A stretch of DNA of 22,011 bases from a virus: the IMG/VR virus record IMGVR_UViG_3300024518_004794, positions 1 to 22,011 of that record; one strand, 5' to 3'. Shown here one piece after another: positions 2,936 to 22,011 of this stretch. The position numbers and the translations under genes are program-made. A model generated the notes under the pieces. The model did no database searches and had not been told where the DNA came from. It saw nothing but the letters and a program-made list of their open reading frames with translations. Position 1 is the stretch's first letter. The number at the start of each line of letters is the position of its first letter.

Positions 2936-4977
2936 TGCTGTGCCTCTTTGGTTGCGTCCTGCAATATCACTGCAAGTAACGCAAGGTCTTCATCACCCGT
3001 GCTTTTGGCCTGGGTTGCCAGTGCAGCGATCCGCGCCGGCATTTGTTCCACGGGAAACTTCGTTGATTTTGCCAGCCACCTGACCACTGATGGGCTGGTC
3101 ATTAGTCGTGCCGACCCATTCAATACGCCAACACCGGCAGCGATCCCTGCAGCAGTTTCAAGTTGACCTGATATTACTGCCAGGCCAAAAGCGCCAATGG
3201 TCATATTCTGCGTTGCGGCCTGGGCAGTACCGGACGGATTTCTGAAGACTTGCGAGCCACCACGAAGATTTGCAGCAACCCGGGCCAAGGTATCCATGTC
3301 ATTACGGAAACCAGGACCATAACGATCGAACAAGGTGCGCTTTGCTTCCCGGCTGAGTGAGTTCCAGTTACTGAGAAATGTCTCGGTACTAAAAACATCA
3401 CCGAGTTCATTCTGAGCACCGGGTTTTGCCAGGCCCATTCGGCGCAGTACGGTTGCTGTCAGAATCTTCTGGTGTTCACGATCGAGCGATTGCATTACCG
3501 AACGCAACACAGTTGCACCTTCCTTGGTGCCTGACATTGCCGCAGCAAATACTTTCTCGGGCCCGCCTTTGCGTTTCAGTGCCGACTCAATAACCTCGAT
3601 GCGATTGTGGCCTGCATTGGTATGGTTATTGGCACGTAACCAGGCTTGCCTGGCTTGTGGGCTCTGACTAGCAGCAACTGCTGTCTCCATGTCTTTGCTC
3701 AGTGCAGCGTAGAGGCGTTTCCACTCGGCCTTGCTGATATCGTCTGCCAACCCGACAGTGGATAGTTTCTCACCGACCTTGGACCGCAATTCCTTGAGTG
3801 CCCTGAACGGCAAACGACCATTAGCCGATGCCGCCACATCATCATACAGGGCATCATAAATACGACGTAGTGCTGGGTTGGATATTGCCTCTGAAGTATG
3901 TGAAGCGCCGGCAATAGTGCCGGTCATCTCGTCCAGGGTCTCAACGGTATTTTCTACGCTGACCTTCGTTCTTGGCCTGACCAGCACCTCGAGCTCGTCA
4001 TAGAGTCGTTTTTGTGTAGCACGGAACCGGTCAATAAAACCATCCTTGCCACTGATCCCCTCAGTAATACTGCGCCCGGCACGTTCAGCCGATGTCTTGC
4101 CGGCAAGCTGATTTGCCCTTGCTTCAAGTCCTGCCGCAAGGTCGTCGGCTTGCTGTTCTGCAGCGCCAGTAATACGCCCGGCACTACCCGGAGCGCGTGA
4201 CATGGCGCCCTCAGTTGCCTGGGCTACTCGTCCCTGGGTTGCCTGGGCTACGGATGGTTCGGCACCAACCCGGTGAAAGTCATCGACGGTATTCGCCATA
4301 GACTGGCGACCTGCCGGGCCGCCCCTGACTGCTCCGCGCACCGCGGCCGCAGGAATGTTGGTAAGTGCCATTGGTGCCGCACCTCCTCCAATCCCTGCCA
4401 CCATTTGTGCTGTTGGGCCATAACCCTCTTCTGCGGCCGTATGCGCCGCTGTCATGCCCGTAGAGACACCAACTGCCTGATTGGCGGGATTCTGCGCCAT
4501 TGTCTGACCAACCGCCCTGGTGACTGGTGAGGTCGCCTGTTGCGCCATTTGAGCCCCGGTCGCTATCCCTGCCAAAGACATCACCCCAGCACGACTGATA
4601 GCCTCGCTATAGCGTTCTGCCTTGTCTTCTGGCTCTACGCCCGTGATATCGGTAAAGCCTTCGTATACTGTCTGCGCACGATTAGTAGGCAGCCTGTAAT
4701 CGAGCGGTTCATCACCCATAGCCTGCCCGGCACGATCAACGCCTTCAATGCCATAATTTATGCCAACAGCAAGCGTATCACTCAGGCCTGCAACGGCAAG
4801 TCCTGGTGTTTCTGCAAGGTAACGGCCGCCAAGCTTCATGCCACGCCAGACCTTCTCTGACAGGGTGCGTGGTTGTTCTTCAGCATACTCGAGCATGACC
4901 CTGTCGATGACCTCTTGTGCGGTACCATCGGCAAATTCGTGGATTTGCCCGTCAGCAGATTGTACTTCCTGTGTCAT
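2932..4977 (-). CDS. Large DNA-ejection / internal virion protein, 681 residues
   Basis: Third ejection-type protein, in the place of P22 gp16/gp20. The N-terminus (VQSADGQIHEFADGTAQEVI) is the short beta module DGxIHEFxDGT found at the start of many phage injection proteins. Gly/Ala-rich hydrophobic segments near 128-146, 192-216 and 593-622 could insert in a membrane. The region 233-290 (GAEPSVAQATQGRVAQATEG, then a helical QADDLAAGLEARA) is also common in these proteins and includes an exact tandem repeat. The middle is mainly charged helix. It may act as the envelope-spanning injection component; some relatives carry a lytic transglycosylase domain, but I see none here. It overlaps both neighbours by four bases. 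Confidence 0.8.
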   Translation of the reverse strand: MTQEVQSADGQIHEFADGTAQEVIDRVMLEYAEEQPRTLSEKVWRGMKLGGRYLAETPGLAVAGLSDTLAVGINYGIEGVDRAGQAMGDEPLDYRLPTNRAQTVYEGFTDITGVEPEDKAERYSEAISRAGVMSLAGIATGAQMAQQATSPVTRAVGQTMAQNPANQAVGVSTGMTAAHTAAEEGYGPTAQMVAGIGGGAAPMALTNIPAAAVRGAVRGGPAGRQSMANTVDDFHRVGAEPSVAQATQGRVAQATEGAMSRAPGSAGRITGAAEQQADDLAAGLEARANQLAGKTSAERAGRSITEGISGKDGFIDRFRATQKRLYDELEVLVRPRTKVSVENTVETLDEMTGTIAGASHTSEAISNPALRRIYDALYDDVAASANGRLPFRALKELRSKVGEKLSTVGLADDISKAEWKRLYAALSKDMETAVAASQSPQARQAWLRANNHTNAGHNRIEVIESALKRKGGPEKVFAAAMSGTKEGATVLRSVMQSLDREHQKILTATVLRRMGLAKPGAQNELGDVFSTETFLSNWNSLSREAKRTLFDRYGPGFRNDMDTLARVAANLRGGSQVFRNPSGTAQAATQNMTIGAFGLAVISGQLETAAGIAAGVGVLNGSARLMTSPSVVRWLAKSTKFPVEQMPARIAALATQAKSTGDEDLALLAVILQDATKEAQQ
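4215..4251 (-). repeat. Short tandem repeat within the large ejection gene
   Basis: The 13-base word ttgcctgggctac (plus strand) occurs at 4215-4227 and again at 4239-4251, a 24-base period. It encodes the repeated octet VAQATQGR / VAQATEGA in the protein, so it is probably an in-frame duplication. Confidence 0.8.
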
Positions 4978-6167
4978 TCGATCCGGCGCCCTTCAGTGTC
5001 ATAGTGCATCCTGGAACCACCAGACTCTGTCAGTGGTTCCAGGGTAAAGTCCAGTGCATCCTGAATTTCTTTGGCGGCAAATTCATCGCCGGCACGGGTT
5101 GCTGCTTCAATGCCGCGCCGTGCCGCACGTTCCATTATTTTCAGTGCCTGTTGCAGTAATCTACGGTTACCCTCGGTCGACTTACCAAAATTTGCCTCGA
5201 TGTACTCGAGTCGCTCACCCTCGCCGGCAGTGAACTGCGCGCCAAACACTGTACGTAATTGAGAAAGTATTGCCTTGCCAAGATTGGCGTTGAGTTCGGT
5301 TTCATCAGCACCAGCAATACCAAACAGGTTTCTCGCCGCCAGCGCAATTTCTCCGGGCCTGCCAGTGCCAACAACATCAAGCAATTGAATGCCTCTGCGT
5401 ATAACTGCAGTTGCATCGGCCTGACGTTGTCCTACATCAATAAATTCCTGGTCCCTGGCCGAAGCACCGCGCGCTGTGGCCTGACTACCAGCAACATCAG
5501 CAGCAATCCGTGACTGCCCGGCAGACTCTTCATCAATGGTCGTCAAAGACATTTGTTCACCACCGGGAAATACCCAGGTAGGTACACCGTTGATATCCTT
5601 TACGCTGCCAGCATAATTCGCTTGCATGTACCCGGCACGTTGCTTGGGTCCGGCTTTCATCCACCACTCGGCCTGCTGAATCTTTGCCGGTATCTGCGGT
5701 GCTCTTGTTGGGTTGTAATAGGGTCGCTCGCCGAGCGCATCGGACGGTCGGACGTATTCAGGGCCGTCTTCACCATGCACCCCAACAATGTCATTCTTCG
5801 TTAGTGGGTCTGGTTGGCCTGCCAGCCCCATCATCATGTCCTGGTTCATATTCTGTAAACCAACCATAGCCTCTTCAGAACTTGCTGTGGCCGGGTCGAA
5901 CGGGAAATCCTGCCAGACACCACGACGCTGTCCCTCGGCAATCATGTTCGGCATAAAAGCGCGAAATGATTCTGGATTTTGCTGCATTAGTTCAAGGCCT
6001 TGCTGACTAGCCGCGGCCGCCCATTTGGTGTTAGCAATGCGCTGGTCTTCTGAGAACGCATACTTCGTTTGCTCATTTCTCAGTGCATTCCATTCATGTT
6101 GCTGCGCCGCCTGGTCAATAGCTGCGACATTCATTTTGTTCGGTAACGGAGGTAGTTGCACGGCCAT
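4974..6167 (-). CDS. DNA-ejection / internal virion protein, 397 residues
   Basis: Probably one of the proteins expelled with DNA to form a conduit across the host envelope. The N-terminal half is Gln/Asn/Met-rich and helical (MAVQLPPLPNKMN, then QNPESFRAFMPNMI). The most family-like part is 295-357, with NLGKAILSQLRTVFGAQFTA and GERLEYIEANFGKSTEGNR followed by a basic helix, a block repeatedly seen in podophage DNA-transfer proteins. No cleavable signal or strong membrane span is seen. It lies between two other ejection-type genes, replacing the P22 gp7-gp20-gp16 group. The start has an excellent GGAGGA site and the stop overlaps the next start (ATGA). Confidence 0.78.
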   Translation of the reverse strand: MAVQLPPLPNKMNVAAIDQAAQQHEWNALRNEQTKYAFSEDQRIANTKWAAAASQQGLELMQQNPESFRAFMPNMIAEGQRRGVWQDFPFDPATASSEEAMVGLQNMNQDMMMGLAGQPDPLTKNDIVGVHGEDGPEYVRPSDALGERPYYNPTRAPQIPAKIQQAEWWMKAGPKQRAGYMQANYAGSVKDINGVPTWVFPGGEQMSLTTIDEESAGQSRIAADVAGSQATARGASARDQEFIDVGQRQADATAVIRRGIQLLDVVGTGRPGEIALAARNLFGIAGADETELNANLGKAILSQLRTVFGAQFTAGEGERLEYIEANFGKSTEGNRRLLQQALKIMERAARRGIEAATRAGDEFAAKEIQDALDFTLEPLTESGGSRMHYDTEGRRIE

Positions 6168-6170
6168 GAT

Positions 6171-7058
6171 TTATCCTCCAAACAACTTATCGTAATCGAC
6201 CATCAGGTAACCATCCTTTTCGGACACAGCATGCGGGTGAGTCTTTTGCACCTCTTGTGCGATCACGCCCGTAGTCGGGTCATCAATGCCGAGTCCCCTG
6301 GCAGTATCGTTCCAGTCCCAGGTATAAAACTGCAACCCGGCAAATTCACCACAAGACTCGATGTTTTCCTTGAGACGAATGTCAGACATTGGTCCCCCAA
6401 TATAGCCACCGAAATTTGCTGGGATGCCAATACCTCCGCCGCCACTGCCACCAGTCCCGGCACCAGATGTCGGTGGAATATTCTGCTGTGCCTTGTTCCA
6501 TCCATAGAGCATGTTACTGGCACCGGAGTTCATTGCGTTTGCCATGTTGGCAGCATTCCACATTCCAATGGACGCTGCGTTATCGCCCATTGCACTGTAG
6601 ATGCTTGCCTTTTGTCCGGTCACTGGTGTGGTGTAAGCTGCGGTACCGGTAGTTGCTGTCTGACCCATGCCGGCCATGCCAGCCTGCCGATTCCACCAGG
6701 AACCGAACTCGTTGGTTGCCAGGTTCTGGTTATATTCGTTGAGTGCTCGCATCGCATTTCCACCACCTGACTTGGCAGAAAAAATGTTCTCCATATCGCG
6801 CATGCCTTCTTTGCGTCTGAAAGCATAACCAGGGGATTCTTCAAATGCTGTTGGGTCTTCCATACGCCCAATAGCGCGCTCACCAGCCTCACGCCAGGGA
6901 GCGTAATCTTCGCGGGTTACATCAAATTGCCGCGTGAGTTCGTCAAGACCTTTTTGCTTGAATTTACGGTCACGCCTTGCAGCACTTCTTGCCTGATGAC
7001 CAGTGATGAATGCCATTGTCTGGTCATTCGCTGCACCAATTGTTGCTGACCAACTCAT
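6171..7058 (-). CDS. DNA-ejection protein fused to peptidase S74 chaperone domain
   Basis: The N-terminal two thirds match phage DNA-transfer proteins: RRDRKFKQKGLDELTRQFD (29-47), APWREAGERAIGRMEDP (53-69), ESPGYAFRRKEGMRDMENIF (74-93), GGGNAMRALNEYNQ (98-111) and WWNRQAGMAG (121-130). A Gly-rich linker (199-223) leads to MSDIRLKENIE (224-234) and GVIAQEVQKTHPHAVSEKDG (264-283), the hallmarks of the S74 intramolecular chaperone. This domain normally trimerises fibres and cuts itself off just before the Ser of the SDxRLK motif, here S225. Cleavage would release a chaperone of about 71 residues. It is the first of three consecutive ejection-type genes. Its last two Gly codons form the ribosome binding site of the next gene. 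Confidence 0.85.
   Translation of the reverse strand: MSWSATIGAANDQTMAFITGHQARSAARRDRKFKQKGLDELTRQFDVTREDYAPWREAGERAIGRMEDPTAFEESPGYAFRRKEGMRDMENIFSAKSGGGNAMRALNEYNQNLATNEFGSWWNRQAGMAGMGQTATTGTAAYTTPVTGQKASIYSAMGDNAASIGMWNAANMANAMNSGASNMLYGWNKAQQNIPPTSGAGTGGSGGGGIGIPANFGGYIGGPMSDIRLKENIESCGEFAGLQFYTWDWNDTARGLGIDDPTTGVIAQEVQKTHPHAVSEKDGYLMVDYDKLFGG
6174..6179 (-). promoter_or_regulatory. Strong ribosome binding site made of the final Gly-Gly codons
   Basis: GGAGGA on the minus strand encodes the last two glycines of the S74-fusion protein and lies 6 bases before ATG at 6167 of the next gene, with the TAA stop in the spacer. It should favour high translation and re-initiation. Confidence 0.7.
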
Positions 7059-10873: not shown

Positions 10874-10999
10874 TTAATGTCGCTTAGATAGCAACAGCTT
10901 TTGAACTGCAGCAGACACCTCTTCCGGTGACATGCCTTGAGTTGGGTATTCATCCTCATCAATAACATGGTCATCATTCACCACCCTGGAGGAGGGCAT
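10874..10999 (-). CDS. Very small acidic protein, about 41 residues
   Basis: Reading frame beginning MPSSRVVNDDHVIDEDEY and ending QKLLLSKRH, acidic in the first half, with a helix-like SPEEVSAAVQKLLLS at the end. It fills the space between the 854-residue gene, whose last 26 bases it overlaps in another frame, and the gp10-like gene 20 bases downstream. The start is uncertain: ATG at 10999 has no clear ribosome binding site, and GTG codons at 10984 and 10981 are alternatives. Its reality is supported mainly by the fact that it fills an otherwise empty 120-base gap in a tightly packed operon. Function unknown. Confidence 0.45.
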   Translation of the reverse strand: MPSSRVVNDDHVIDEDEYPTQGMSPEEVSAAVQKLLLSKRH

Positions 11000-13538
11000 T
11001 GGCGCCCTGCTTCTTGATCTTCGGATCGCCCTTGTTCTCACCCAGGGATCCGCGTTGCTTGTCAAATGCCTTATCAAACTTAGATGCTGCCCATGACCAT
11101 GCTTCTGGACCTTTTTTTAATACCTCATCAAGGGTTCTTAGTTCCTTAATTGCGGCAGCCCAATTCTTTTCACCGATAGCAACCGCTGCATCACGGGCAG
11201 CACGTTGCATTTCATTGTATACAGGTAATTTGCGATGCTCATCGGCATACACTTTCAACGCAGCATCAAGTTCTTCTGCAGTGCGAACTGGACCGTACTG
11301 CGGATTCTCTTTTGCAAAGCGCGCATTGGCGGCAATGTTCTCAAGCATTTCGCGCTCAAATCCATAGCCACTAGTAAGGGCATGTAATCCACGGGTGACT
11401 TTTGGTGCAACAAACTCATAACCCATATCAAAAGATAAAGCGGTTGCTTCTGTCATGCGGTGCGTAATATCTCCAACATGCTCAACCACTGGATTAAGCA
11501 CACCACCACCAGTCGTGGCTTGTACTTTGACCATTGCTGCTTCTGGGGCGCCACGCTGCAGGTTACCCAGGGCAATGACCGACTTTTGATCTGCCGTGGG
11601 CTTGTCGTAAACAAAATCCTTGCCATAGCCAATTCGACCAACGTCCTCTGGTCCGACCATCTCGTTCAAGGTTGTCTGCCCGGTTCTTGCCGGCACCGGA
11701 GCAGACGGTTCTATGCCGGTTTGCCTTGCATTAGCCCACTCCCGTGCATCACGAAGAGTGTCAAATTCTGGGTGGTTATACATTTTGCCATTTGCATCAA
11801 ACACCACCCACTCAGTAACATTTGCATTACGCAACGAACTGCCGTCATACCTGACCACAGTAAATTTATTGTCGTGGTACATTTTGGCGACATTCTCAGG
11901 AAGGTATAACCCCTTCATGTCCTTTCTGATTGCCGATTCCCTGAAACCGAAGTCCATCTTTGGCTTGTCCGGTGGTTTGGGCCCACCCCGTTGTTTTGGA
12001 TCGACCCTGGACAACGGTTGCTTGTCTTGTTTTGCTTTCAGCTTTTCGAGTCGACGTTGCTCAACTGCGAGTTGCTTCTCGACCGTCTTGGTCGCTTCAC
12101 CTGCAACCCGGCGCGCGTCGAGCTCGGTTCGCATTTCATCAACCAGGTACTGCTGCGACTTGAGCTCGAAGTCGGCGCCTGGATCTACCGTCCTGGCAGT
12201 AATTCTGCCAGCATCTTCTCGTGCAGCAATTGCTTCATGCGATGCAGCGCCCCACTCTTTCGGCTCTTTAGGCGTGACCGACTTCTGCGCTTCGTTCGCC
12301 CTGGCGTATTCCCACACTGCTGGACGCATTGCATCCTTCATTGCGCCTGTAATTCGATCTGCCTCCATGCCGCGTGGACCCTCGAAGCGTTCAGGGAAAT
12401 ATTCTTCCCAATTTCTGAACTCATCGAATAACTCATTCGCCTTGACTGGGTAATCGCTCCATATATTCAGATTCTCACGATGTAAGTTCGGAATTGCCTC
12501 AATGACCTGATCATGAATTGCCGTTTCTGCTTCCCAAACATACAGAGCACCTGTGTCATCCTCAATCATGAATCGAACATTAGGATTGTCCCGACCGGCA
12601 AATCGTGCCAATGCTGCCTCATCTGGATTGATCAAAAGATCCACAGTTCCACCTTCCCTGTTTTCCAGTGCATTAAAGCGCCATTTTTCTGACACAGCTG
12701 GAACCTTGAGTTTCTGCTGTGTAAATTTCGGTTTTGTTGGTGACAAAACCGGGCCGCCACGTTGTCTGGGCAGTTGTTCTGCAAGCGTGTTGGTCGCTAT
12801 TGCCGCCTTTGTGGGTGCAGTCGGGTCGTGCTTCAGGGTAGTCTCAGCGAATTGCCGGTCGGTTGACATTGCATTGGTTTCTGGAATGCTTCGGCCTGGT
12901 TCACGCTGATCGGTTAATAGTCGTGACCTGGGCGCATCCGGGCGCATCTTATCCATCTCTGCAGCAACCCGGCCTGCCTGGTACTTACCGGCCATGCTGC
13001 CAAGACGCTCAGAGCCGCGGGTAATTGCCCGCAGTGGTGCCATTGGTGCGAGTGCCAGGGCAGCCTGTCCACCGGCATAGATTCCGCCAGCTATTTCCGG
13101 GCCAACCAATGGATCCATGAAGTTGTGGTACGCCTCACGGGCAGGCAGCATGGAATTGCCAATCTTCTCGATGCCCTTGCCAGCATCTGCCAGTGTTTGT
13201 TGTGCCAGTTCACCCTTGGGACTGTAAGTAAACTTGTCCTCTGCCTTGTGAATATAATCAACTGCACGATTCAGATCCCAACCATCTTTCGTCGCGCCGG
13301 CACCAATGCCGGTCCAACCCGCGACCGCCATAGCCGGGATTGCAGAGCCGAGCGCCAGCATATTTTCTGATGTAGCTTCGCGAACGGATTGTTCCTCGGC
13401 TGCCGTCAGGCCTGGTATGGGTTGATCGTATTCACCGGCAAATAATCTGCGGTGATCGGCATCATCAATATCGAATTTGGGTAGATCAAACCCCAGGTCG
13501 ACTAGACCGTAATGGCCCAGGTTGACGGTTATGCCCAT
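10974..13538 (-). CDS. Large putative virion or polyvalent protein, 854 residues
   Basis: I do not recognise a defined family. The N-terminal 190 residues contain two Gly/Ala-rich hydrophobic stretches (about 58-82 and 145-170) like those of phage ejection proteins. The middle has two alpha/beta-looking blocks, about 285-350 (LLINPDEAALARF, VRFMIEDDTGALYVW) and 545-605 (FTVVRYDGSSLRN, EWVVFDANGKMYNH), the latter reminiscent of large polyvalent-protein domains. A charged helix lies at 455-505, and the C-terminus is helical and Lys-rich. Linker motifs RQRGGP (258-263), KQRGGP (515-520) and KQRGS (827-831) separate the blocks. Position between the gp4-like and gp10-like genes suggests a virion component, perhaps delivered with DNA. 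Start overlaps the gp4-like stop (TAATG). Confidence 0.75.
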   Translation of the reverse strand: MGITVNLGHYGLVDLGFDLPKFDIDDADHRRLFAGEYDQPIPGLTAAEEQSVREATSENMLALGSAIPAMAVAGWTGIGAGATKDGWDLNRAVDYIHKAEDKFTYSPKGELAQQTLADAGKGIEKIGNSMLPAREAYHNFMDPLVGPEIAGGIYAGGQAALALAPMAPLRAITRGSERLGSMAGKYQAGRVAAEMDKMRPDAPRSRLLTDQREPGRSIPETNAMSTDRQFAETTLKHDPTAPTKAAIATNTLAEQLPRQRGGPVLSPTKPKFTQQKLKVPAVSEKWRFNALENREGGTVDLLINPDEAALARFAGRDNPNVRFMIEDDTGALYVWEAETAIHDQVIEAIPNLHRENLNIWSDYPVKANELFDEFRNWEEYFPERFEGPRGMEADRITGAMKDAMRPAVWEYARANEAQKSVTPKEPKEWGAASHEAIAAREDAGRITARTVDPGADFELKSQQYLVDEMRTELDARRVAGEATKTVEKQLAVEQRRLEKLKAKQDKQPLSRVDPKQRGGPKPPDKPKMDFGFRESAIRKDMKGLYLPENVAKMYHDNKFTVVRYDGSSLRNANVTEWVVFDANGKMYNHPEFDTLRDAREWANARQTGIEPSAPVPARTGQTTLNEMVGPEDVGRIGYGKDFVYDKPTADQKSVIALGNLQRGAPEAAMVKVQATTGGGVLNPVVEHVGDITHRMTEATALSFDMGYEFVAPKVTRGLHALTSGYGFEREMLENIAANARFAKENPQYGPVRTAEELDAALKVYADEHRKLPVYNEMQRAARDAAVAIGEKNWAAAIKELRTLDEVLKKGPEAWSWAASKFDKAFDKQRGSLGENKGDPKIKKQGANALLQGGE

Positions 13539-13954
13539 TAGTTGTCCGTGGTGATATCGTAACGGGTACCGAAGTGACCCTGGCCGATCGGCAGATGCGT
13601 CATGTCGGTATTGTCGAGTTTCTCCGATAACGACTTGCGCAGCATCGTGTTATAGGCACTTGAGCCCACGCCGATAAGTTCTGCGGATGCACTGGCGCCA
13701 AATCTTGGCGCTACATTGACTGCCAGGCCGGTAGTTACTGCCAATTCAGCCCAGTCAGGTATCGGACAGGTTGCAGTTGTGTCTGCTTGCGGATAATAGC
13801 CGAGGTCGATGCCGTCTTCGCGCCACATTTCCATCATTTGATTCAGCCGGCGCAAGGCTATGGCACCCTGATCTGAGCTTGCCGAGTCGACCTCGGAGAT
13901 TACATTGATTTCGCGCAGTGCGTCATCAATGAGCTGGATATTGGTGATTGCCAT
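13538..13954 (-). CDS. Tail accessory/head-completion protein, P22 gp4-like
   Basis: In P22, gp4 binds under the portal and prepares it for the tail hub. This 138-residue protein has the family pattern: a start with helix LIDDALREINVISEVDSA, QGAIALRRLNQMMEMW near 29-44, EDGIDLGYYPQ (46-56) and a central PIPDWAELAVTTGLAV (64-79), then an Ala/Ser-rich helix. The ATG follows the radical SAM stop directly (TGAATG), and I see no Shine-Dalgarno sequence at normal distance, so translation is likely coupled to the enzyme gene upstream. The stop overlaps the next start by one base (TAATG). In P22 this gene comes straight after coat, which makes the enzyme cassette look like an insertion. Confidence 0.9.
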   Translation of the reverse strand: MAITNIQLIDDALREINVISEVDSASSDQGAIALRRLNQMMEMWREDGIDLGYYPQADTTATCPIPDWAELAVTTGLAVNVAPRFGASASAELIGVGSSAYNTMLRKSLSEKLDNTDMTHLPIGQGHFGTRYDITTDN

Positions 13955-14821
13955 TCAGTATGTGCAGGTCTCACAAGCAGGATAATGCTGCCGGCTCAAC
14001 AACTGCTCCCTCCTCTGTCTCCAGTGTGGTGCATTATAGACCTCAAGGAGCGAGTTTTTGCTGATATCCCCAATGGGAAACTGACCCTCACCGTCCATGC
14101 AGCATAACGACACTACGCCGGAAGACATGATCGACAACTCAAACCACCGCGAACAAGGTGTATCCGGCACAGTGTCAATCTGCGAGTCAGTATACCCCAA
14201 CCACTCCGATCTCTGTATAGCCACAGACTGAAACTTGGGCCAACGATCAAAACAGTACATCCTGAACGGTTCATTGGGATAGCCCACAGTACTCAGTACT
14301 ACCGGGTGCGGGAAATCCTGACTATGCAGATTATCCAGGCGTTTTGCGGTCTTCTCGAACGGGATCGACATCAGTGCCTGGTAGTCCTCGGCGATATGCG
14401 AGTTCAGTGAAATCCACAAATGCTCAACCCGATCAAGACAGGCAATAGCCTCTATTTTGGCCTGGCTCAGTGGTGCGCCATTGGTGAATATGCGCAACCT
14501 TGCCATAGTATTGGCAACCACCCGCTGACAGATATCGAATAATCGCTTATCCAGCAATGGTTCGTTGACCTTAAATGGCGAGAAAAAGAACGGTTTGGTG
14601 AACCCGGACATCTCTTCGATGACCTTGTCAATGAGCTCGTCGGGCATTTTCTCGCCCTTGCGATCAAGGCTCGGGTACGGGCAGAAACTACAGGCCGCAT
14701 TGCAGAATGCGAATGTTTCCAGGGAGACCTCGTTTGGCTGATCCAGATAATGCTGCTGCAGATCACTGAAATAATCTGCTAGTGCATTGCCCTTCTCCAG
14801 TTCATCAAAGAAGTCGGTCAC
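13955..14821 (-). CDS. Radical SAM protein with C-terminal SPASM-like domain
   Basis: Radical SAM enzymes use a [4Fe-4S] cluster to cleave SAM and start radical chemistry. The cluster motif C40-x3-C44-x2-C47 (CNAACSFC) lies after an N-terminal helix, followed by FFFSPFKVNEPLLD (78-91, the GGEP-like position) and RIFTNGA (110-116). The C-terminal part has further cysteines, C223, C240/C241 and C283-x2-C286, with the SPASM-type pieces SSGVVSLCC, PIGDI and ACETC, enough for at least one auxiliary cluster. SPASM proteins often act on peptides or proteins, but also on other substrates; no precursor-like peptide gene is obvious here. The start is GTG overlapping the methyltransferase stop (GTGA), with no strong ribosome binding site, so translation is probably coupled. 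Its TGA touches the ATG of the gp4-like tail gene. Confidence 0.9.
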   Translation of the reverse strand: MTDFFDELEKGNALADYFSDLQQHYLDQPNEVSLETFAFCNAACSFCPYPSLDRKGEKMPDELIDKVIEEMSGFTKPFFFSPFKVNEPLLDKRLFDICQRVVANTMARLRIFTNGAPLSQAKIEAIACLDRVEHLWISLNSHIAEDYQALMSIPFEKTAKRLDNLHSQDFPHPVVLSTVGYPNEPFRMYCFDRWPKFQSVAIQRSEWLGYTDSQIDTVPDTPCSRWFELSIMSSGVVSLCCMDGEGQFPIGDISKNSLLEVYNAPHWRQRREQLLSRQHYPACETCTY

Positions 14822-15327
14822 TTAACTGCCCGGAGCACAAAACCGAAAGTATCACTACTCTCGTCCTTGCCAACCAGGTCAAAATCACCGTCCCAATATT
14901 TGCGATAATCGGTCATCGCATTTTTGCCAACCTGGGCCGCATATTCTTTCTGCGACAGAAATACCAGTGACCCAGACGAGATTATGCGCTTGTGACCAGG
15001 GTCGCCCCATGCCCACATGGAGTCCCACATCGGACAGGTGCCGATCAGGTAACCACCAGGTTTCAGGATTCTCCAGAGTTCGTAGAACTGGTTGAAGAAA
15101 AATCGCCAGTCACCCTGTTGCCCGGTATGCTCAAGCACCTCATAAGCATGCACCTCATCGAACATATTGTCATCGAACGGCAACGGCAGGTTCTCCAGGT
15201 CATGACAATATGTCGGGTTGCAGTCTTCATCGATATCCAGGGTAACCAGGTCGGTCCACTGTGTGGGTATGTCCGGTATCGTTACCTGCTTCTTGCGTTG
15301 ATTTCCACAACCAATCAGTAATTCCAT
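14818..15327 (-). CDS. Class I SAM-dependent methyltransferase
   Basis: Small cytoplasmic methyltransferase of 169 residues resembling the Methyltransf_11 type. LIGCGNQ at 4-10 is a motif I (SAM-binding loop) placed almost at the N-terminus, and D31 in LVTLDID fits the acidic ribose-binding position. LENLPLPFDDNMFDEVHAYEVLEH (44-67) is the usual region that carries the end of strand four, and LKPGG (88-92) is the conserved motif before strand five. Substrate is not evident. A good AAGGGG ribosome binding site sits 8 bases before ATG. It overlaps the glycosyltransferase by one base and the radical SAM gene by four (GTGA), so the three are almost certainly co-translated. Sugar O-methylation after glycosyl transfer is an inference from context only. 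Confidence 0.85.
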   Translation of the reverse strand: MELLIGCGNQRKKQVTIPDIPTQWTDLVTLDIDEDCNPTYCHDLENLPLPFDDNMFDEVHAYEVLEHTGQQGDWRFFFNQFYELWRILKPGGYLIGTCPMWDSMWAWGDPGHKRIISSGSLVFLSQKEYAAQVGKNAMTDYRKYWDGDFDLVGKDESSDTFGFVLRAVK

Positions 15328-16112
15328 TACGCTGCCCCTTTGCGTTTTTGTCCAAGCTTGGGTTCCGTATTTTCACGGTTCCACTTGAACTTCTCTACCT
15401 CTTTTCTGAGCCACTTGGAGTAGTTACAAGCCAGCCCGCCATGCACAAAATCAAAGTCAGTCCAGACACTGATCTTCTTGCCGTACTTCTTGACGTAGTC
15501 AGTACACCAGGCAAAGTCCTCACCAACAAAACGGCCCTCATCATCGATGTAGGTATAAAACAACCGCGGAATCGGTGCCTGGTTCTGTACATGAATCTTT
15601 TCGACGTCCTGTGACATTTCCTCGAGAATCTCACGCCGAATGCACAGAAACCCGGTCGCTACCCGGTCCGCCATTAGCCAGTCATCTTTGTCCATCCACA
15701 GAGTATCTTCACCATTTTCACCCTTTATGTCCGGGTGTGGTGACCACACGATAGGGTAATCCTCGAGTTCGGGATTACGACGCCGATATGCGCCAGCTAC
15801 CACGGGACGATCCGGTGTACAGTGCCTGACCAGTTCAGGTACTGCCCTGGTTTCGAATTTCAGGTCGGAGTCGATAAAAAAGAAGTGAGTGCAGTCTTTA
15901 TGCTCTTCGAGGAAAATCCTGACAAACATATTGCGGGCCAGGTCGATAAAGCAGCTATTGCCCATTGTTGCTGCGGTCATACGAATACCGAACACTGCAC
16001 AGGCAAATGATGCGTTGGCTAGTGATGCAGCAAAATCACTATCAACCTTGCCATCGTATGCCGGCGTAGCAACATACACATGCGCAATTTCCTGCTCGGA
16101 TTTCTTACCCAT
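15327..16112 (-). CDS. GT-A type glycosyltransferase
   Basis: Predicted nucleotide-sugar transferase of 261 residues. The N-terminal HVYVATPAYDGKV suits the first beta strand and nucleotide-binding loop. FFFIDSDLKFE near 77-87 carries a DxD-type metal/nucleotide motif (D81-S-D83). VVAGAYRRR (104-112), VATGFLCIRREIL (151-163), VGEDFAWC (196-203, candidate catalytic base) and DFVHGG (221-226, candidate metal ligand His) complete the usual GT-A motif series. No signal peptide or membrane segment is seen, so it should act in the cytoplasm. Acceptor and sugar are unknown. It starts 53 bases after the coat gene with GGGG about 8 bases before ATG. Its TAA overlaps the methyltransferase ATG by one base (TAATG), the first link of a three-enzyme cassette inserted between coat and tail genes. 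Confidence 0.85.
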   Translation of the reverse strand: MGKKSEQEIAHVYVATPAYDGKVDSDFAASLANASFACAVFGIRMTAATMGNSCFIDLARNMFVRIFLEEHKDCTHFFFIDSDLKFETRAVPELVRHCTPDRPVVAGAYRRRNPELEDYPIVWSPHPDIKGENGEDTLWMDKDDWLMADRVATGFLCIRREILEEMSQDVEKIHVQNQAPIPRLFYTYIDDEGRFVGEDFAWCTDYVKKYGKKISVWTDFDFVHGGLACNYSKWLRKEVEKFKWNRENTEPKLGQKRKGAA

Positions 16113-16134: not shown

Positions 16135-16157
16135 GGGAGGGCCATTACGACCCTCCC
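16135..16157 (-). terminator. Hairpin after the coat gene (terminator or attenuator)
   Basis: On the minus strand GGGAGGG (16157-16151) pairs perfectly with CCCTCCC (16141-16135) around a 9-base loop, 8 bases after the coat stop codon. Only a weak T tract (TTCT, later ATTT) follows, so it is likely a leaky terminator or an mRNA-end stabiliser rather than a full stop. It lies in the widest gap of the right half of the window, 53 bases between coat and glycosyltransferase genes. Confidence 0.55.
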
Positions 16158-16165
16158 CGGATCGA

Positions 16166-17434
16166 TTACAGCAGATCCAACTCGTACATATGACGGTTGG
16201 CGAGTTCCGGGTACAACCCGGCAAATCCCCAGAGTACGTCAATACGACATGGAACAGAGTCATCGGCGATCGTGTACTGTCTTGCTACACGCATCGAGAT
16301 GCCATCTTTCTGCGCTCGAGCTCCCCAGGCACCATACCTGGAAACATCCTCGAGGTCCGCGGTAGCGAACACAAACGCATCCTTGTGGTACTGCAGATCC
16401 TGACCGAACCCGCTCGACACCGCACCGATCAGGGTACAGGTCAAACCGTCAGTATCGGATACGCCGCTCAACGCACAGTTCTGGTAGGCATTACCTGAAC
16501 CATAGATCAGTCCAGGCTTAACCGTCACTGTGTAAGCAGTTGCTGCAGTTGTCAGCGTCACATCACTCTGCACGACAAACGTCTTCAGTTTGCCACGAGT
16601 GGTCTTGGTCTCCGGGTGAACATCATAGACACCCGACATCGTGATGATGTCGCCGGCCTTGAGGTCCGTCGTGGAGGTAGCACCATCGATCGACAAAGCT
16701 GTTTGCGAAACCCAGGTATTTGCCGTGGTGGTAGCAGTACCCAATGCCGTGCCGTTCGTTAGAGCGGAACCAGCAAAGGAACCAGTGGTGTGACTTGGAA
16801 CAAGCGTGTTCTCGTACACATCGAAACCACCCGTGCGACCCATGAGGCCTTCACGGTACTGGCGCCGAATATTCTCCTGGGATTGAAAAAGACCCTTGAC
16901 GGCATCATTAAATTCAACCTGTGAATCAGGAGATAGAGCCGCGCAACGCTGCGACAGCGGGCCCAACTGGTTGGTGATGTTCGCACCACCTTGCTGGTAA
17001 CGCTTGTAGGTCATAAGACCATCTGTCGTTGCGTTGGTGTAGTTGTTCACGAGCTTGTAGGCTACTGCAAAAGCATCGCCTTCAATCTTCGCGGCCAACT
17101 GCGCCATTGCGGGTTCAATTACCCGATCAGAGAAATCGTCGAGGTCCATCGTCAGTTCAACAGTCGTGAACGATACATCCACATGGTACTGACTGTTGAC
17201 CGTCAGAGGAGTCGAACGCTCGGTGTGGTCCTGGTGCGAGATCGAGGCGCCAGTCTTAACGACATACTTCGGCGGCATCCGAATATTAAGACTTGTGCCA
17301 ATCTTTGCACCGGTCTCAGCAAACCGATCATCGTACTGACGATTGACGTTACCAATAAAATTGCACTTTTGATGCAGAACGTCCAACGATTTGCGCGTGA
17401 TCATGGTCGGCGTGAGAATCGTAGTGGATGCCAT
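16166..17434 (-). CDS. Major capsid protein, P22 coat (gp5) family
   Basis: Builds the icosahedral shell with the HK97-like fold. The 422-residue length and several stretches match the P22 coat family: an N-terminal region with TPTMITRKSLDVL, the segment KAGDIITMSGVYDVHPETK near 259-277, and a C-terminal FATADLEDVSRYG followed by IRVDVLWGFA-type ending (RIDVLWGFAGLYPELA). The stretch near 217-345 is Thr/Ala/Ser-rich and beta-like, and corresponds to the inserted I-domain region of P22 coat. Gene position after scaffold agrees. The ATG is preceded by GAGGGGA at good spacing. A GC-rich hairpin follows the stop codon, so expression may step down after this gene. Confidence 0.93.
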   Translation of the reverse strand: MASTTILTPTMITRKSLDVLHQKCNFIGNVNRQYDDRFAETGAKIGTSLNIRMPPKYVVKTGASISHQDHTERSTPLTVNSQYHVDVSFTTVELTMDLDDFSDRVIEPAMAQLAAKIEGDAFAVAYKLVNNYTNATTDGLMTYKRYQQGGANITNQLGPLSQRCAALSPDSQVEFNDAVKGLFQSQENIRRQYREGLMGRTGGFDVYENTLVPSHTTGSFAGSALTNGTALGTATTTANTWVSQTALSIDGATSTTDLKAGDIITMSGVYDVHPETKTTRGKLKTFVVQSDVTLTTAATAYTVTVKPGLIYGSGNAYQNCALSGVSDTDGLTCTLIGAVSSGFGQDLQYHKDAFVFATADLEDVSRYGAWGARAQKDGISMRVARQYTIADDSVPCRIDVLWGFAGLYPELANRHMYELDLL

Positions 17435-17437
17435 AGG

Positions 17438-18316
17438 CTATCCCCTCAGTTTAACTAACCGTTTCTCTTCCGCTGCAAACCACTCCGCATCAGACATCTT
17501 GTCTGACTTTGGATCGGTTGTCGCCGGCTTAAAGCCGGGTTGTGCGCCCTTTACCTTAGCTGGCGGCGGCGGAGCGTCACTGACCTTCTTGCTCTGAGCT
17601 TTTGCCTTCTCCGTGCGAAGTGTGGATTCAAGTTTCCACATCTCCCGGTCTGATTCACGGCCAGACAAACCATTGATACGAGATGCTTCCTCCGGGTGCT
17701 TGCCCAGGTAGTAGAACATTTCCGGGCCTAACTCGTTGGCGCGTAACTCGTCCGCCATTCGCTGATTAATACGCAAGGTCGGTTCCTGCGTGACCTTGGT
17801 ATAGTCGTCAATGCTCTCGGCGAATGCCGTTTCCCTGGCAGCGAACTTGTCTCTGAGTGACTCTGTCCGTTGGTTTACCTGGAAATCACGAACAACTTCC
17901 TTTGCAGCATTCTGTGCATCGGCTACTGTCTGATCATGCAGGTATGCCCTGAACTTGCCCTCATCGTAATCAAAGTCCTCCAGGGTTTTCGTTGGTTCCT
18001 GCGGCGCCGGTTGTGACGCTAACTCTGTCTCGGCTTTCTCAGCTCGGGCCAGTGCAGCGGCCTCACGCCGTTCCGCATCCCTGAAACTTTCGGTCAGCTT
18101 ATCGATGCGTCCTTGAAACGCATTGGTTTTTTTGTCGTCGTCTTCCTCGACGGGTGGTGGTGACTCACCTTCGCTTTCCAGGCCATCTTCCTGCTCCACT
18201 ACTTTGGCATCCGCCTCTATAGGTTCTGCAGGCTCTGGCTCTGGACTCGCGTCTGCACCAAATCCGGGGTCTGTCGGTGCGAAACCTTCATCTGCCGGTG
18301 CTGTACTGTTTTCCAT
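17438..18316 (-). CDS. Scaffolding protein (P22 gp8-like role)
   Basis: Probable internal scaffold that guides coat assembly and then leaves the prohead. The first 60 residues are very acidic and rich in Pro and Glu. A charged Ala/Glu/Arg helical stretch follows (about 65-105), then a predicted helical middle, and a C-terminal basic helix (AEWFAAEEKRLVKLRG) like the coat-binding ends of P22-type scaffolds. The assignment rests mainly on composition and position between portal and coat. I choose ATG at 18316 (292 residues) because GAAAGG (18325-18330) lies 8 bases upstream. A GTG three codons earlier would overlap that ribosome binding site. The last codons CTG AGG GGA supply the GAGGGGA ribosome binding site for the coat gene. 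Confidence 0.82.
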   Translation of the reverse strand: MENSTAPADEGFAPTDPGFGADASPEPEPAEPIEADAKVVEQEDGLESEGESPPPVEEDDDKKTNAFQGRIDKLTESFRDAERREAAALARAEKAETELASQPAPQEPTKTLEDFDYDEGKFRAYLHDQTVADAQNAAKEVVRDFQVNQRTESLRDKFAARETAFAESIDDYTKVTQEPTLRINQRMADELRANELGPEMFYYLGKHPEEASRINGLSGRESDREMWKLESTLRTEKAKAQSKKVSDAPPPPAKVKGAQPGFKPATTDPKSDKMSDAEWFAAEEKRLVKLRG

Positions 18317-18352
18317 TGGATACACCTTTCAGTGTTGCGCCTCCCGGCGAAT

Positions 18353-20692
18353 CTAGCCTCCCGTATCCCCGGAGTCGGGTTCGGCAGGGACAATACGTAA
18401 CCCTCCCTGCTCCCTGACAGCGGCAACACTCTTCATGCTGCCATCGTCAAATTCTACATCTGCGGTGAGTCTACCACCCTCTCGCCTGACAGTTCCACCT
18501 GTGGGCTTGCGCTGCAACTGCAAATCAGTGATATCCGAGTGCTCACGGATCTTCAGCATGGCCTGGTCAACCGACATCATGAACTGTGCCAGAATGCTAT
18601 CAACGCGCCCGGACTGATCCAGGGCAGTGTCTTCACGATCATCAAGTTCTTCGCCGGCGCGTACCGCTGCCTCTTTTACCTCGGCGCCCTTGACCGTCAA
18701 CTGAGCTTCACGCTGTACCAGGGCGGCACCCTTTTCGGTCATGCCAGATAATGTCTCGGCAATATGTGCATCGAACTCTGCCCGCGCAGTTCGTACATTG
18801 GCGGCCTCGAGCTTGAGTTCTGCTTTGGCCTGCTCGGTGACCGACTTATCCTCTTGCAGTTCGGCATTCGCTGCCTGCACCAGTTGCCCGTATTCTTGTA
18901 CCTGGGCCATAGCCTGCTCGGCCTGCTGCATCATCTGCTGGACCTCGGGCGGAATATCCTGCTCCTTGTCCATCATCTGCTGTATCTGTGGCGGCAGTAA
19001 TGTCTTCAGTCGTTCTGCAATGTCCTCGGCATAAGGCAAATCCATTGACTTGAATACCAGGTCACCAGCAACGCCCATGATCTCGGGCATTCCCTGGGTA
19101 AGCTGCATATATGTCTCGGCAGCCTCCTGGCGCAGTGTCGAGAAGTTCGGCCCAACAGTGACGGTGACATCGTACTTGCCGGTCGACAGGTCATTAACCC
19201 GCACCGTTCGGCCCTCGGCCGGATCGAATACAACCTGGTTGACCCGCACATAGTCCTCGGCACCGTCACTGCCCAATATCCGCAATTCACGTTCGGTATC
19301 GTAAATCTCCGGTATCAGGTCAATGATAATCTCGTAAGTGCGCTTAATGCCCTTTGCCATGTTGTCGGCATAATTGAATGTTGCGATCGATCCCTGCTGT
19401 TGACGGGCATAAATGGCCCTGCCAGACTTCTCGTCACCAGTCTTGCCCATCGAGGCATCCGGCAGGGCAATCACTTCCTTGATCTCCTCAGAAGCAATTG
19501 CAGCCTCTTGTATCAGTGCGATCGGTACATCGGCAGCGCCCATCCGCATCGGTGGACCTGGTGACTTGGGGTCAGGGTTATACAGCATGTAGGGCAGGTT
19601 CTTTTTGTGTGCTGTTGCCCACTGATCGGTAAGGCCTTTGGCCTGTTCCGGGGTTGCCCACCATACAGTTTTTGGTACCTGAGCAGTGGTCTCGATGATC
19701 GATGTGCGGGTTACGTTATATGCCCGTTGTGCATCCTTGGAGAATCTCGGCAAGCCCCACCAGTAAGGTCGACCATCAATGACTACGTACTCACCGAAGA
19801 TCACCACAAACGGAAAATGCTTGCCTGCCCACTCGGTCGGGCCTTCAAGGATAGACTTGCCGGAAACAATGCACCACATGATCTTGTCGGTCATTACCTC
19901 ACGCCTATCAACGATCGCTGCCGGGGCAATACCGCGGGCCTCATCCGATTCAGAATCAACTACCAGAGTCTCGCCGTCGAGCTCGACCTTCCACAGTTCT
20001 TTCTTGTGTGGCTCTTTCCACCAGTACTCAGCAATGCGGACAGTCTCATCGTCCTGCCAGTCCTCATCGTCATCGAACTCGAGTGAGTCTTCGAAATTGG
20101 ACTTCTGTGCTTTCTTGCCGTATTTCGCTTCGAAGGCCTTGATGCTGATCTTGGTGGTTAGAATCCAGTCCTCGGCATCACGCTTCATCGAATCCTTGGC
20201 AGCCGGATCCCAGAACAGACAGAACGGGTTCTCGATCGAGCGAATGGTGATGTCCTGGTCGAACATGGTGTCATCGGCATATTCGGTATCAACGCGCCAG
20301 GCACCGAATCCGGCATTCACCTGGTACTCGGCCGCATAGTCGATCACCGTATCACCGTCACTGACATTCCACAGATTGCGTACCAGGCCTTCATTGATCT
20401 CGGCAGTATCCTTGTCACCACCTTCGACTGCCCTGACCTTGCCCTGCGGTCTGTTGGCGCGCATCTCGTTGATGATGCGCTTGCCGGCAGGGCGAATCTT
20501 GTTGAACTCGTAACAGGGCCGCAAGCCACGTTCCTGTTTCATGTTGTCTTCCCACTGCCAGCCAGGGACATTGACGAACTTCATGTCCTGCATAGCCTCG
20601 AGTCTGTTCTCGTGGTCGGCGTCAAACATGATCGTGTAACGACCACGGATATCCTTCATCAGGTCTTGGCTTGCTTTACGCCGCATATCCAC
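18353..20692 (-). CDS. Portal protein, P22 gp1-like
   Basis: Forms the dodecameric ring at the unique capsid vertex that acts as DNA channel and tail attachment site. At 779 residues it is close to the P22 portal (725). It has the family N-terminal layout (a conserved RPCYEFNKIRPAGKRIINEMR-type region near 58-78, then SIENPFCLFWDP near 150) and a long Gln/Ala/Glu-rich helical region from about 575 to 690, likely coiled coil or barrel, before a short hydrophilic tail. The proposed start is a GTG at 20692 because AGAGGA (20700-20705) sits 7 bases upstream of it. The in-frame ATG at 20686 would have a spacing of 13. The start lies inside the terminase gene (17-base overlap), and the scaffold gene follows after a short gap. 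Confidence 0.93.
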   Translation of the reverse strand: MDMRRKASQDLMKDIRGRYTIMFDADHENRLEAMQDMKFVNVPGWQWEDNMKQERGLRPCYEFNKIRPAGKRIINEMRANRPQGKVRAVEGGDKDTAEINEGLVRNLWNVSDGDTVIDYAAEYQVNAGFGAWRVDTEYADDTMFDQDITIRSIENPFCLFWDPAAKDSMKRDAEDWILTTKISIKAFEAKYGKKAQKSNFEDSLEFDDDEDWQDDETVRIAEYWWKEPHKKELWKVELDGETLVVDSESDEARGIAPAAIVDRREVMTDKIMWCIVSGKSILEGPTEWAGKHFPFVVIFGEYVVIDGRPYWWGLPRFSKDAQRAYNVTRTSIIETTAQVPKTVWWATPEQAKGLTDQWATAHKKNLPYMLYNPDPKSPGPPMRMGAADVPIALIQEAAIASEEIKEVIALPDASMGKTGDEKSGRAIYARQQQGSIATFNYADNMAKGIKRTYEIIIDLIPEIYDTERELRILGSDGAEDYVRVNQVVFDPAEGRTVRVNDLSTGKYDVTVTVGPNFSTLRQEAAETYMQLTQGMPEIMGVAGDLVFKSMDLPYAEDIAERLKTLLPPQIQQMMDKEQDIPPEVQQMMQQAEQAMAQVQEYGQLVQAANAELQEDKSVTEQAKAELKLEAANVRTARAEFDAHIAETLSGMTEKGAALVQREAQLTVKGAEVKEAAVRAGEELDDREDTALDQSGRVDSILAQFMMSVDQAMLKIREHSDITDLQLQRKPTGGTVRREGGRLTADVEFDDGSMKSVAAVREQGGLRIVPAEPDSGDTGG

Positions 20693-22011
20693 TTTCGAAT
20701 CCTCTGTATGGGTTATCTATGACTGCACTATCATTGACCAACTGATCGGCGACCACGGCAGTGTAACAAAATGACTCACCTCCATGCGAGAACTCGTCCT
20801 TCATCGGCGGCATGGTCTTGATTGAGCCAGTATTGGTATCACTCACCTGGTAGCGCCACCGACGTAAACACCGCAGCAATACGCCACAATCCTCGTTGTC
20901 CGATATATAGATGTTATTGAACAGATCACGACCGGACTCGATGTAGTTCTCGACACCGATCTGCGGTATCTCTTCAGTCTGCCAACCCAGTTCCTGCATT
21001 ACCTCGTAATGACTCTTGCCGTACTTCGGATCCCGGTGACTGGCATCGTGCGGCATGAACACCTTACCCCAGCGGTAATTGGGAAACTCCTTCAGCAGTC
21101 CAGGCTCTGTACCGCTTTGGTTGCCATTGGTGAGCTCGGCATAGGTGCTGTGATACAACTCCTTGTAGCCAATGATCTGCACTGTCGAGGCAAACTTCTG
21201 CGCCAGTATTGCCGTCATCACTCCATAACCCAGGTCCATGATCACATGCACCCTGCCACTCGAATCATGATCCAGCGGCCTGATTCGACCTTGTTCCTTG
21301 AGCCTGGCAACCTCCGTTGCAAAGATAGCGCCTTCGACTGCCGGCAAACACTGGCCTTCCCAAATCCAGTTATATTTCACCTGACCTTCTGACTTGTCCT
21401 TTTGTTTCGATCGCTGCCGCTCCTTTTCCAGGACGGCCGGGAACCAGGGATTATCACGCCAGTTCAGCGTCACCACGCATACATCCGATTGTGGATCCAG
21501 AGCAAACCTGGCATGTACCGGGTCGTCCTCGAGCTCGGGATTGTAGGTATAAACGATGACTGAGTTCTCTTCACGGATGGTCGGTGTCAGGACATCTAGG
21601 CTTTTCTCGCTGAGTACATGCGACTCTTCGCACCAACACAGCATAATGCGCTCAGTCGATTTCAGCTTGGCAACATCCTGCTGTCTGAGGCCGGCAAACA
21701 GGAAAGCGGACCCGTTCATGCCATCAATACTGGTTTTCTTCTTGTCAAAGAACTCGTCGTCACCGAGCTCGGTAATAACGTCACTGAGCAACTGATACAC
21801 AGACTCCTCAATGCTCTTCTGCGTTTCACGAGTACAGAGTATGCGGATCGCATGCTTCTTGGCTATGTTGACAAACATCCTGGCAACGCTATGTGATTTG
21901 GCGCTACCGCGGCCGCCCTTGATGATCAGATGCCGTAATGGCACCTCGAACTCTTTGCTCGGGCCGCATTCACCGTCAATGGTCGCAAGCAACCAGTGCA
22001 GTGCATACTCG
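20676..22011 (-). CDS. terL: Terminase large subunit (5' end beyond window)
   Basis: DNA-packaging motor: ATPase plus nuclease that threads phage DNA into the prohead through the portal. Residues are counted from the first full codon in the window. The Walker A motif GGRGSAKS lies near 32-39, a Walker B-type CWCEES near 125-130, the coupling motif YTYNP near 154-158, and nuclease-domain acidic residues in MDLGYG (Asp near 259) and HDASHRD (Asp near 322). This pattern fits the Terminase_3/PBSX-like family. The frame stays open to the right edge, and the first possible in-frame start is an unconvincing TTG at 21992, so the true start very probably lies outside the window. The visible 444 codons should be nearly the whole protein. 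Its last codons overlap the start of the portal gene, the classic terminase-portal pair. Confidence 0.95.
   Translation of the reverse strand, partial: EYALHWLLATIDGECGPSKEFEVPLRHLIIKGGRGSAKSHSVARMFVNIAKKHAIRILCTRETQKSIEESVYQLLSDVITELGDDEFFDKKKTSIDGMNGSAFLFAGLRQQDVAKLKSTERIMLCWCEESHVLSEKSLDVLTPTIREENSVIVYTYNPELEDDPVHARFALDPQSDVCVVTLNWRDNPWFPAVLEKERQRSKQKDKSEGQVKYNWIWEGQCLPAVEGAIFATEVARLKEQGRIRPLDHDSSGRVHVIMDLGYGVMTAILAQKFASTVQIIGYKELYHSTYAELTNGNQSGTEPGLLKEFPNYRWGKVFMPHDASHRDPKYGKSHYEVMQELGWQTEEIPQIGVENYIESGRDLFNNIYISDNEDCGVLLRCLRRWRYQVSDTNTGSIKTMPPMKDEFSHGGESFCYTAVVADQLVNDSAVIDNPYRGFESGYAA
20700..20705 (-). promoter_or_regulatory. Ribosome binding site deciding a GTG start of the portal gene
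   Basis: AGAGGA on the minus strand, 7 bases before GTG at 20692, inside the last codons of the terminase gene. The spacing favours GTG over the ATG two codons further on. Confidence 0.55.

Follow-up and report, generated by a model that had tools for sequence, protein, structure and literature searches.

Why would a phage carry a glycosyltransferase (GT), a methyltransferase (MT), and a radical SAM enzyme (rSAM) in the middle of its virion operon, between the coat gene and the tail genes, and on what would these enzymes act? The locus in question lies in an IMG/VR virus record of 22,011 bases, here called the window, from an uncultured P22-like phage.

The late operon and its junctions

The late operon of the window lies on the minus strand and reads terminase, portal, probable scaffold, coat, GT, MT, rSAM, gp4-like tail factor, an 854-aa protein, and a gp10-like protein (Table 1). 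Its PF04466, PF16510, PF11651, and PF11650 matches follow one another as in the head module of a P22-like podovirus, with the scaffold placed by position only. The original prediction had described three ORFs at 13955-16112, coupled by 1- and 4-base overlaps and set between coat and tail genes; the coordinates were borne out, as was the placement, by the matches of the portal (PF16510), coat (PF11651), and tail factor (PF11650), and the overlaps could be read at the junctions. Specifically, the GT stop and MT start have one base in common (TAATG), the MT stop and rSAM start overlap by 4 bases (GTGA), and rSAM directly abuts the tail factor, its TGA being followed by ATG, while 53 bases separate the coat stop from the GT start. 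Farther along, the 854-aa protein (10974-13538), between the tail factor and the gp10-like protein, has no family match, and its slot in relatives holds a protein of 386, 538, 563, or 1175 aa or is empty. A tail protein with a Peptidase_S74 intramolecular chaperone domain is encoded at 6171-7058.

Table 1. Features of the late operon in the window and of the coat protein encoded therein
Feature	Position	Strand	Basis
Terminase large subunit	20676..21992	-	PF04466, phrog_3717
Portal protein	18353..20692	-	PF16510, 555 bits
Probable scaffolding protein	17438..18325	-	Position and conservation; no Pfam match
P22-family coat protein, immediately upstream of GT, proposed substrate	16166..17434	-	PF11651, 122 bits, E 4e-35; phrog_283
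Coat aa 224-245 (ALTNGTALGTATTTANTWVSQT), S/T-rich I-domain insertion, candidate acceptor	16700..16765	-	Alignment to P22/Sf6 coat and isolated I-domain 6mnt
Coat aa 293-296 (TLTT), second clade-specific I-domain insertion, conserved Thr	16547..16558	-	Coat alignment
G+C-rich hairpin, 23 bases, between coat stop and GT start	16135..16157	-	-21.1 kcal/mol, z -1.6
GT, GT-A-fold glycosyltransferase (predicted), 261 aa	15327..16112	-	phrog_1574; fold model
MT, small class I SAM-dependent methyltransferase, 169 aa	14818..15327	-	PF08241; LIGCGN and LKPGG motifs
rSAM, radical SAM enzyme, predicted one-cluster twitch domain, 288 aa, GTG start	13955..14821	-	PF04055, PF13186; CNAACSFC core
P22 gp4-like tail accessory factor/head-tail adaptor, downstream cassette boundary	13538..13954	-	PF11650, 29 bits; phrog_637

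The gap between coat and GT may matter for expression. The corresponding gaps in relatives hold hairpins with a median z of -2.7 against simple shuffles (70% of 88 below -2), often with a T-run after them, which makes them terminator- or attenuator-like; the hairpin of the window itself was not flagged by a consensus terminator scan. A partial terminator at this point would give much coat and little enzyme. A promoter belonging to the cassette was considered and rejected, the search having returned one weak match, fewer than in shuffles.

Predicted chemistry of the three enzymes

The catalytic motifs originally named for the three enzymes were all found, and relatives show little or no variation in them. 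In GT, these are DSD (D81-D83) and GED (197-199); D81 and D83 are invariant, and G197, E198, D199, and, outside these motifs, H224 at least nearly so. GT matches phrog_1574 (3e-21), a family without an assigned function, and falls under every Pfam cut-off (PF00535, 13.7 bits vs 23.3); PF00535 matches few of its relatives at all, one of which passes (L142, 24.0 vs 23.3). With all Pfam scores of the window protein below cut-off, the family assignment rests on phrog_1574 and the predicted fold. The AlphaFold model (pLDDT 92.0) is a compact single domain whose best PDB match by Foldseek is A197 of the virus STIV (2c0n, E 7e-9), followed by the glycosyltransferase region of human LH3, mimivirus R699, and the PBCV-1 capsid glycosyltransferase, whereas a sequence search against solved structures gave no match. 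In a viral structure library, many unnamed phage proteins came out on top, with the glycosyltransferase of mycobacteriophage Che8 lower. The TM-scores of the structure matches, 0.3-0.7, support fold and class, not substrate. Given the Rossmann-like fold of the model and the DXD metal motif, we are confident in placing GT among GT-A enzymes.

For MT, the assignment is simpler. PF08241 (Methyltransf_11) matches at 31.8 bits (cut-off 21.2), and motif I (LIGCGN) and post-motif LKPGG are those of a class I SAM methyltransferase; G6, G8, E66, H67, P90, and G92 are invariant or nearly so in 30 relatives. By its sequence, MT is a small Methyltransf_11 protein, from which a substrate cannot be read.

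The third protein had been called a radical SAM/SPASM enzyme, of which the first half stands and the second does not. PF04055 matches at 46.1 bits (cut-off 29.5), and C40, C44, and C47 form the invariant CX3CX2C of the radical SAM superfamily. PF13186 is also above its cut-off (38.4 bits vs 21.5), but the conserved cysteines of the C-terminal domain (C223, C240, C241, C283, and C286) amount to four of ligand type plus C241, in place of the about seven that bind the two auxiliary clusters of a SPASM domain. Judged by this pattern, the domain is a one-cluster twitch, not a full seven-cysteine SPASM. The original prediction had also proposed comparing predicted structures with sugar-modifying enzymes; when this was done, GT modeled as a GT-A fold nearest to STIV A197, and rSAM (pLDDT 84.6) modeled nearest to BtrN. 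BtrN (4m7t) ranks first by both sequence profile and fold, with 16% identity in the fold alignment; DesII is second by fold, the peptide epimerase YydG is the second solved relative by sequence, and the peptide enzymes SuiB and YydG follow BtrN and DesII among the matches. All seven cluster cysteines align with those of BtrN, three in the core and four auxiliary, giving the BtrN-like twitch arrangement of four cysteines around one auxiliary cluster. BtrN oxidizes an aminocyclitol in butirosin synthesis, whereas no aminocyclitol pathway was recognized in the phage. Cellular relatives of rSAM (40-43% identity) sit in two cases beside TPR-GT41 proteins and a sugar-C-methyltransferase-like protein (L150 and L159), in one of these also beside a GDP-mannose-dehydratase-type protein (L159), while others adjoin unrelated genes, for example, a helicase (L148). 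The suggestion that the cassette might process a peptide is thereby weakened: in the manner of a RiPP maturase, it would need a precursor gene, for which the cassette has no intergenic space beyond the 53-base gap behind the coat, and the nearest solved relatives of rSAM include sugar and aminocyclitol enzymes, YydG being a weaker match.

Distribution across coat clades and head modules

IMG/VR was scanned separately with coat, rSAM, GT, and MT; loci sharing sequence were collapsed, and genes were counted by tblastn. Coats at least 55% identical to that of the window were found on 87 uncultured contigs, 62 of which also reach a tail gene. GT is present on all 62, MT on 60, and rSAM on 26, a share inflated by the recruitment of some contigs via rSAM itself, and along the coat tree, presence changes 3 times for GT, 5 times for MT, and 13 times for rSAM. 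Thus, GT is constant in this coat clade and MT nearly so, while rSAM is an accessory that has been gained and lost, and the equal weight first given to the three enzymes has to be abandoned. Layouts without rSAM contain no replacement gene, and MT there adjoins the tail factor. At coat identities below 46%, 20 of 24 complete contigs have none of the three genes.

Homologs scattered without linkage to one another or to coat genes would speak against a cassette, and this is not what the enzyme-seeded searches returned. Every distinct contig found with GT (48/48) carries this P22 coat gene, at a median coat-to-GT spacing of 72 bases in tblastn terms, and MT is present on 45 of the 47 contigs found with rSAM (34 of them carry coat, MT, and GT; 5 are fragments that include tail genes; and 8 represent other settings). 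Coat distances correlated with GT distances at an r of 0.57, vs 0.42 with those of the portal and 0.28 with those of the tail factor, over contig sets that differ. The dN/dS values were 0.03-0.09 for MT, 0.08-0.09 for rSAM, and 0.04-0.06 for coat, with synonymous sites saturated, and could not be computed for GT, whose synonymous sites were beyond the range of correction at 83-84% protein identity. In the two relatives compared, all three enzymes are better conserved than the tail factor (57-67%). The recurrence in dozens of contigs, the saturated synonymous sites, and the low dN/dS (0.03-0.09 where computable) place the cassette far beyond chance.

Several loci deviate from this arrangement. 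An HNH endonuclease ORF stands between GT and MT in one contig (L036:8083-8523), and in another, rSAM precedes scaffold and coat rather than following MT (L135:3-755), which shows that its place within the head operon can vary. An apparent coat-GT fusion (L041) was rejected because the long ORF crosses the coat in another frame. Five contigs with more distant P22-like coats (L064, L073, L074, L079, and L080) have a divergent GT (28-29%), mostly behind a conserved ORF of 70-87 aa, and neither MT nor rSAM; they are possibly an independent coat-GT pairing.

The same chemistries appear in other phages. Between terminase and portal, rSAM and MT occur together in three contigs (L139, L143, and L145) whose portals resemble that of Pseudomonas phage tf, and L140 and L143 have a distant GT-like ORF just past the major head gene. 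A contig with an epsilon15-like portal (L010) has MT, rSAM, and GT between the portal and the major head gene. In L142, a single ORF (4228-5622) joins a GT domain to a methyltransferase domain and is followed by one small ORF and then rSAM. The presence of the same chemistries in three unrelated head modules argues for one pathway, and since MT and rSAM there accompany unrelated coats, their substrate would not be specific to the P22 coat. Among cultured phages, our searches found no isolate with the cassette: rSAM had one match at 24% identity, MT had none, and GT homologs were distant (about 30%). A literature search over an incomplete collection returned no description of the GT-MT-rSAM set.

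A host is nonetheless suggested by a contig of a metagenome-assembled genome (MAG) assigned to uncultured Woeseia (L207-L208), in which coat, GT, MT, rSAM, and tail factor lie inside an intact, integrated P22-like prophage of 37.6 kb (473-38096). The prophage sits in tRNA-Asn, bounded by a 44-base att repeat of the 3' end of that gene (473-516 and 38053-38096), with a tyrosine integrase adjoining the right repeat and host-like genes beyond, which we take, by reading alone, to be gyrA, aroA, smc, and others. It thereby gives a gammaproteobacterial host to an otherwise uncultured clade. A C5-cytosine methylase is among the other products encoded by the prophage, as is an antitermination Q protein. 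A search for further prophages in the order of Woeseia (296 genomes) turned up a single distant coat apart from the one already described.

If the coat is a substrate, a candidate acceptor can be named. The I-domain of P22/Sf6-type coats faces outward, and a profile alignment places the insertion region of the GT-clade coats on this domain. In the 47 GT-clade coats, the first insertion (aa 224-245) averages 9.1 Ser/Thr in about 21 residues, and T237 and W241 are invariant (47/47); both insertions are mostly gaps in 33 coats of the other group. One contig without GT (L059) has a shorter related insert that lacks the Thr pair and the Trp. Because the coats with and without the insertions are separate lineages, the acceptor is a lead, not proof, and as the insertions coincide with one clade, their association with GT may reflect shared ancestry only.

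Possible targets and meaning

We propose, at about even chances, that the cassette is a virion-glycosylation module in which GT glycosylates the coat and MT and rSAM tailor the glycan. GT probably acts on some virion protein, and if it does, the glycan, rather than the protein, is the likelier target of MT and rSAM. GT is found nowhere but beside coat genes of this type, and the phage therefore probably adorns its capsid with an unusual sugar. GT would draw on a nucleotide sugar of the host, a source proposed because 17 related records yielded no sugar-nucleotide gene of the NAD-dependent epimerase/dehydratase type. The transfer would take place in the cytoplasm with the coat protein as acceptor, and the likeliest sites are Thr or Ser residues in those outward-facing I-domain loops that are peculiar to this coat clade. 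Before or after transfer, MT would methylate the sugar and rSAM would oxidize, epimerize, or otherwise remodel it, while the hairpin behind the coat gene may keep the enzymes substoichiometric. The resulting capsid, bearing an unusual glycan, would have an altered surface, which might serve shielding, stability, or adhesion. Several phages that have GT and MT and lack rSAM count against this proposal. Among the options of the original prediction, a modified sugar on a virion protein is nonetheless the best supported, with the three enzymes of unequal weight. A bolder extension, which we hold tentatively and think rather doubtful, is that tailed-phage capsids are decorated with a methylated, radical-SAM-remodeled sugar by a mobile enzyme set, which has entered the head modules of no fewer than three unrelated podophage types (P22-like, tf/LUZ24-like, and epsilon15-like).

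Behind coat glycosylation, we rank as alternatives action on the host surface, then on protein residues, then on DNA. First, and in our view unlikely, the enzymes could remodel LPS or some other glycan of the host surface, either during late infection or in the lysogenic state, and so prevent superinfection or assist release. Some phage GTs have been attributed to host-surface or DNA glycosylation (PMC7029224, PMC12619734), those of pelagimyophages being interpreted as modifiers of the host surface (PMC7029224). The option of altered host glycans also gains from the integrated relative, which makes lysogenic conversion conceivable, and from the rSAM relatives in cellular sugar gene neighborhoods. 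It loses by the location of the genes, which lie inside the late head operon, translationally coupled and without an obvious promoter of their own, and by the tie of GT to one coat family on 48 of 48 contigs; further, GT is modeled as one compact domain, and the GtrA-type flippase (PF04138) that joins a membrane GT in Gtr serotype-conversion cassettes was not found in the 17 related records, which may be fragments. Somewhat less likely still, MT and rSAM might alter residues of head proteins by methylation, epimerization, or cross-linking, with GT a separate decoration. In favor are the peptide-modifying members of the twitch/SPASM class, with YydG and SuiB matching rSAM, and the presence of rSAM and MT in further head modules, some of which show no neighboring GT as far as their DNA was recovered. 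Yet the sugar and cyclitol enzymes BtrN and DesII rank first, the GT-MT fusion near rSAM hints at one glycan pathway shared by the enzymes, a precursor gene is absent, and rSAM has little N-terminal extension.

Action on DNA, with GT glycosylating phage bases and MT and rSAM tailoring the sugar, appears improbable. Virus GTs that hypermodify DNA are known from work cited in PMC12619734, and the GT of L142 weakly matches PF20691, the TET-associated glycosyltransferase. However, the related records, which are fragmentary for this search as for that of GtrA, contain no thymidylate-synthase-fold hydroxymethylase (PF00303; the control matched in 9 genomes) and no PF20691 match above threshold, and a place after the coat in a late operon is unusual for base modification. 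In the search for TET, the control itself gave no match. Fractionally more improbable is that the genes are unrelated cargo (morons), kept near the coat by hitchhiking in the operon and sharing no pathway; the 13 changes of rSAM on the coat tree and the occurrence of MT alone in other phages would fit, whereas purifying selection, the fixation of GT across the coat clade, and the reassembly of the three genes in unrelated phage head modules argue otherwise.

How far would capsid glycosylation of this kind depart from known systems? Virion glycosylation is known in few tailed phages, and GTs near structural genes are usually called modifiers of the host surface or of DNA. We know of no methyltransferase or radical SAM partner of STIV A197 and of no radical SAM enzyme in mycobacteriophage virion glycosylation; that such chemistry acts on a viral glycan has, to our knowledge, not been described. 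The major coat protein of STIV is glycosylated, and A197, a viral GT-A enzyme described as uncharacterized, is a strong candidate for the reaction (PMC4187194); it is the best solved structural match of the window GT, at 15% identity, but STIV is an archaeal virus with a capsid unrelated to the P22-like coat. PBCV-1 A64R (2p6w, an entry whose title assigns it a part in glycosylating the PBCV-1 major capsid) and mimivirus R699 (9dyt) are likewise virus-encoded and of GT-A fold, though these are large eukaryotic viruses and the TM-scores to the window GT are low. In the mycobacteriophages Che8 and Rita, phage GTs have been linked to capsid-protein glycans (Freeman 2023, as cited in PMC11256854 and PMC12619734). 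The Che8 enzyme is a distant structural match to the window GT; these are siphophages whose glycans are reported to lie at the C-termini of capsid and tail tube proteins, whereas here the link to the coat is genomic only. Phage virion glycosylation being known (PMC11256854, PMC12619734), the kind of modification is not new; what is new is the radical SAM partner and the linkage to a coat clade.

A GT that tracks one coat clade, together with Thr-rich loops specific to that coat, makes capsid glycosylation a sharp and testable prediction, and the twitch-type rSAM is a new candidate for a sugar-acting enzyme. If the proposed function is true, it would add a new tailoring chemistry for viral glycans and would explain a recurrent gene set of uncultured phages, including the prophage assigned to Woeseia, that has so far had no function.
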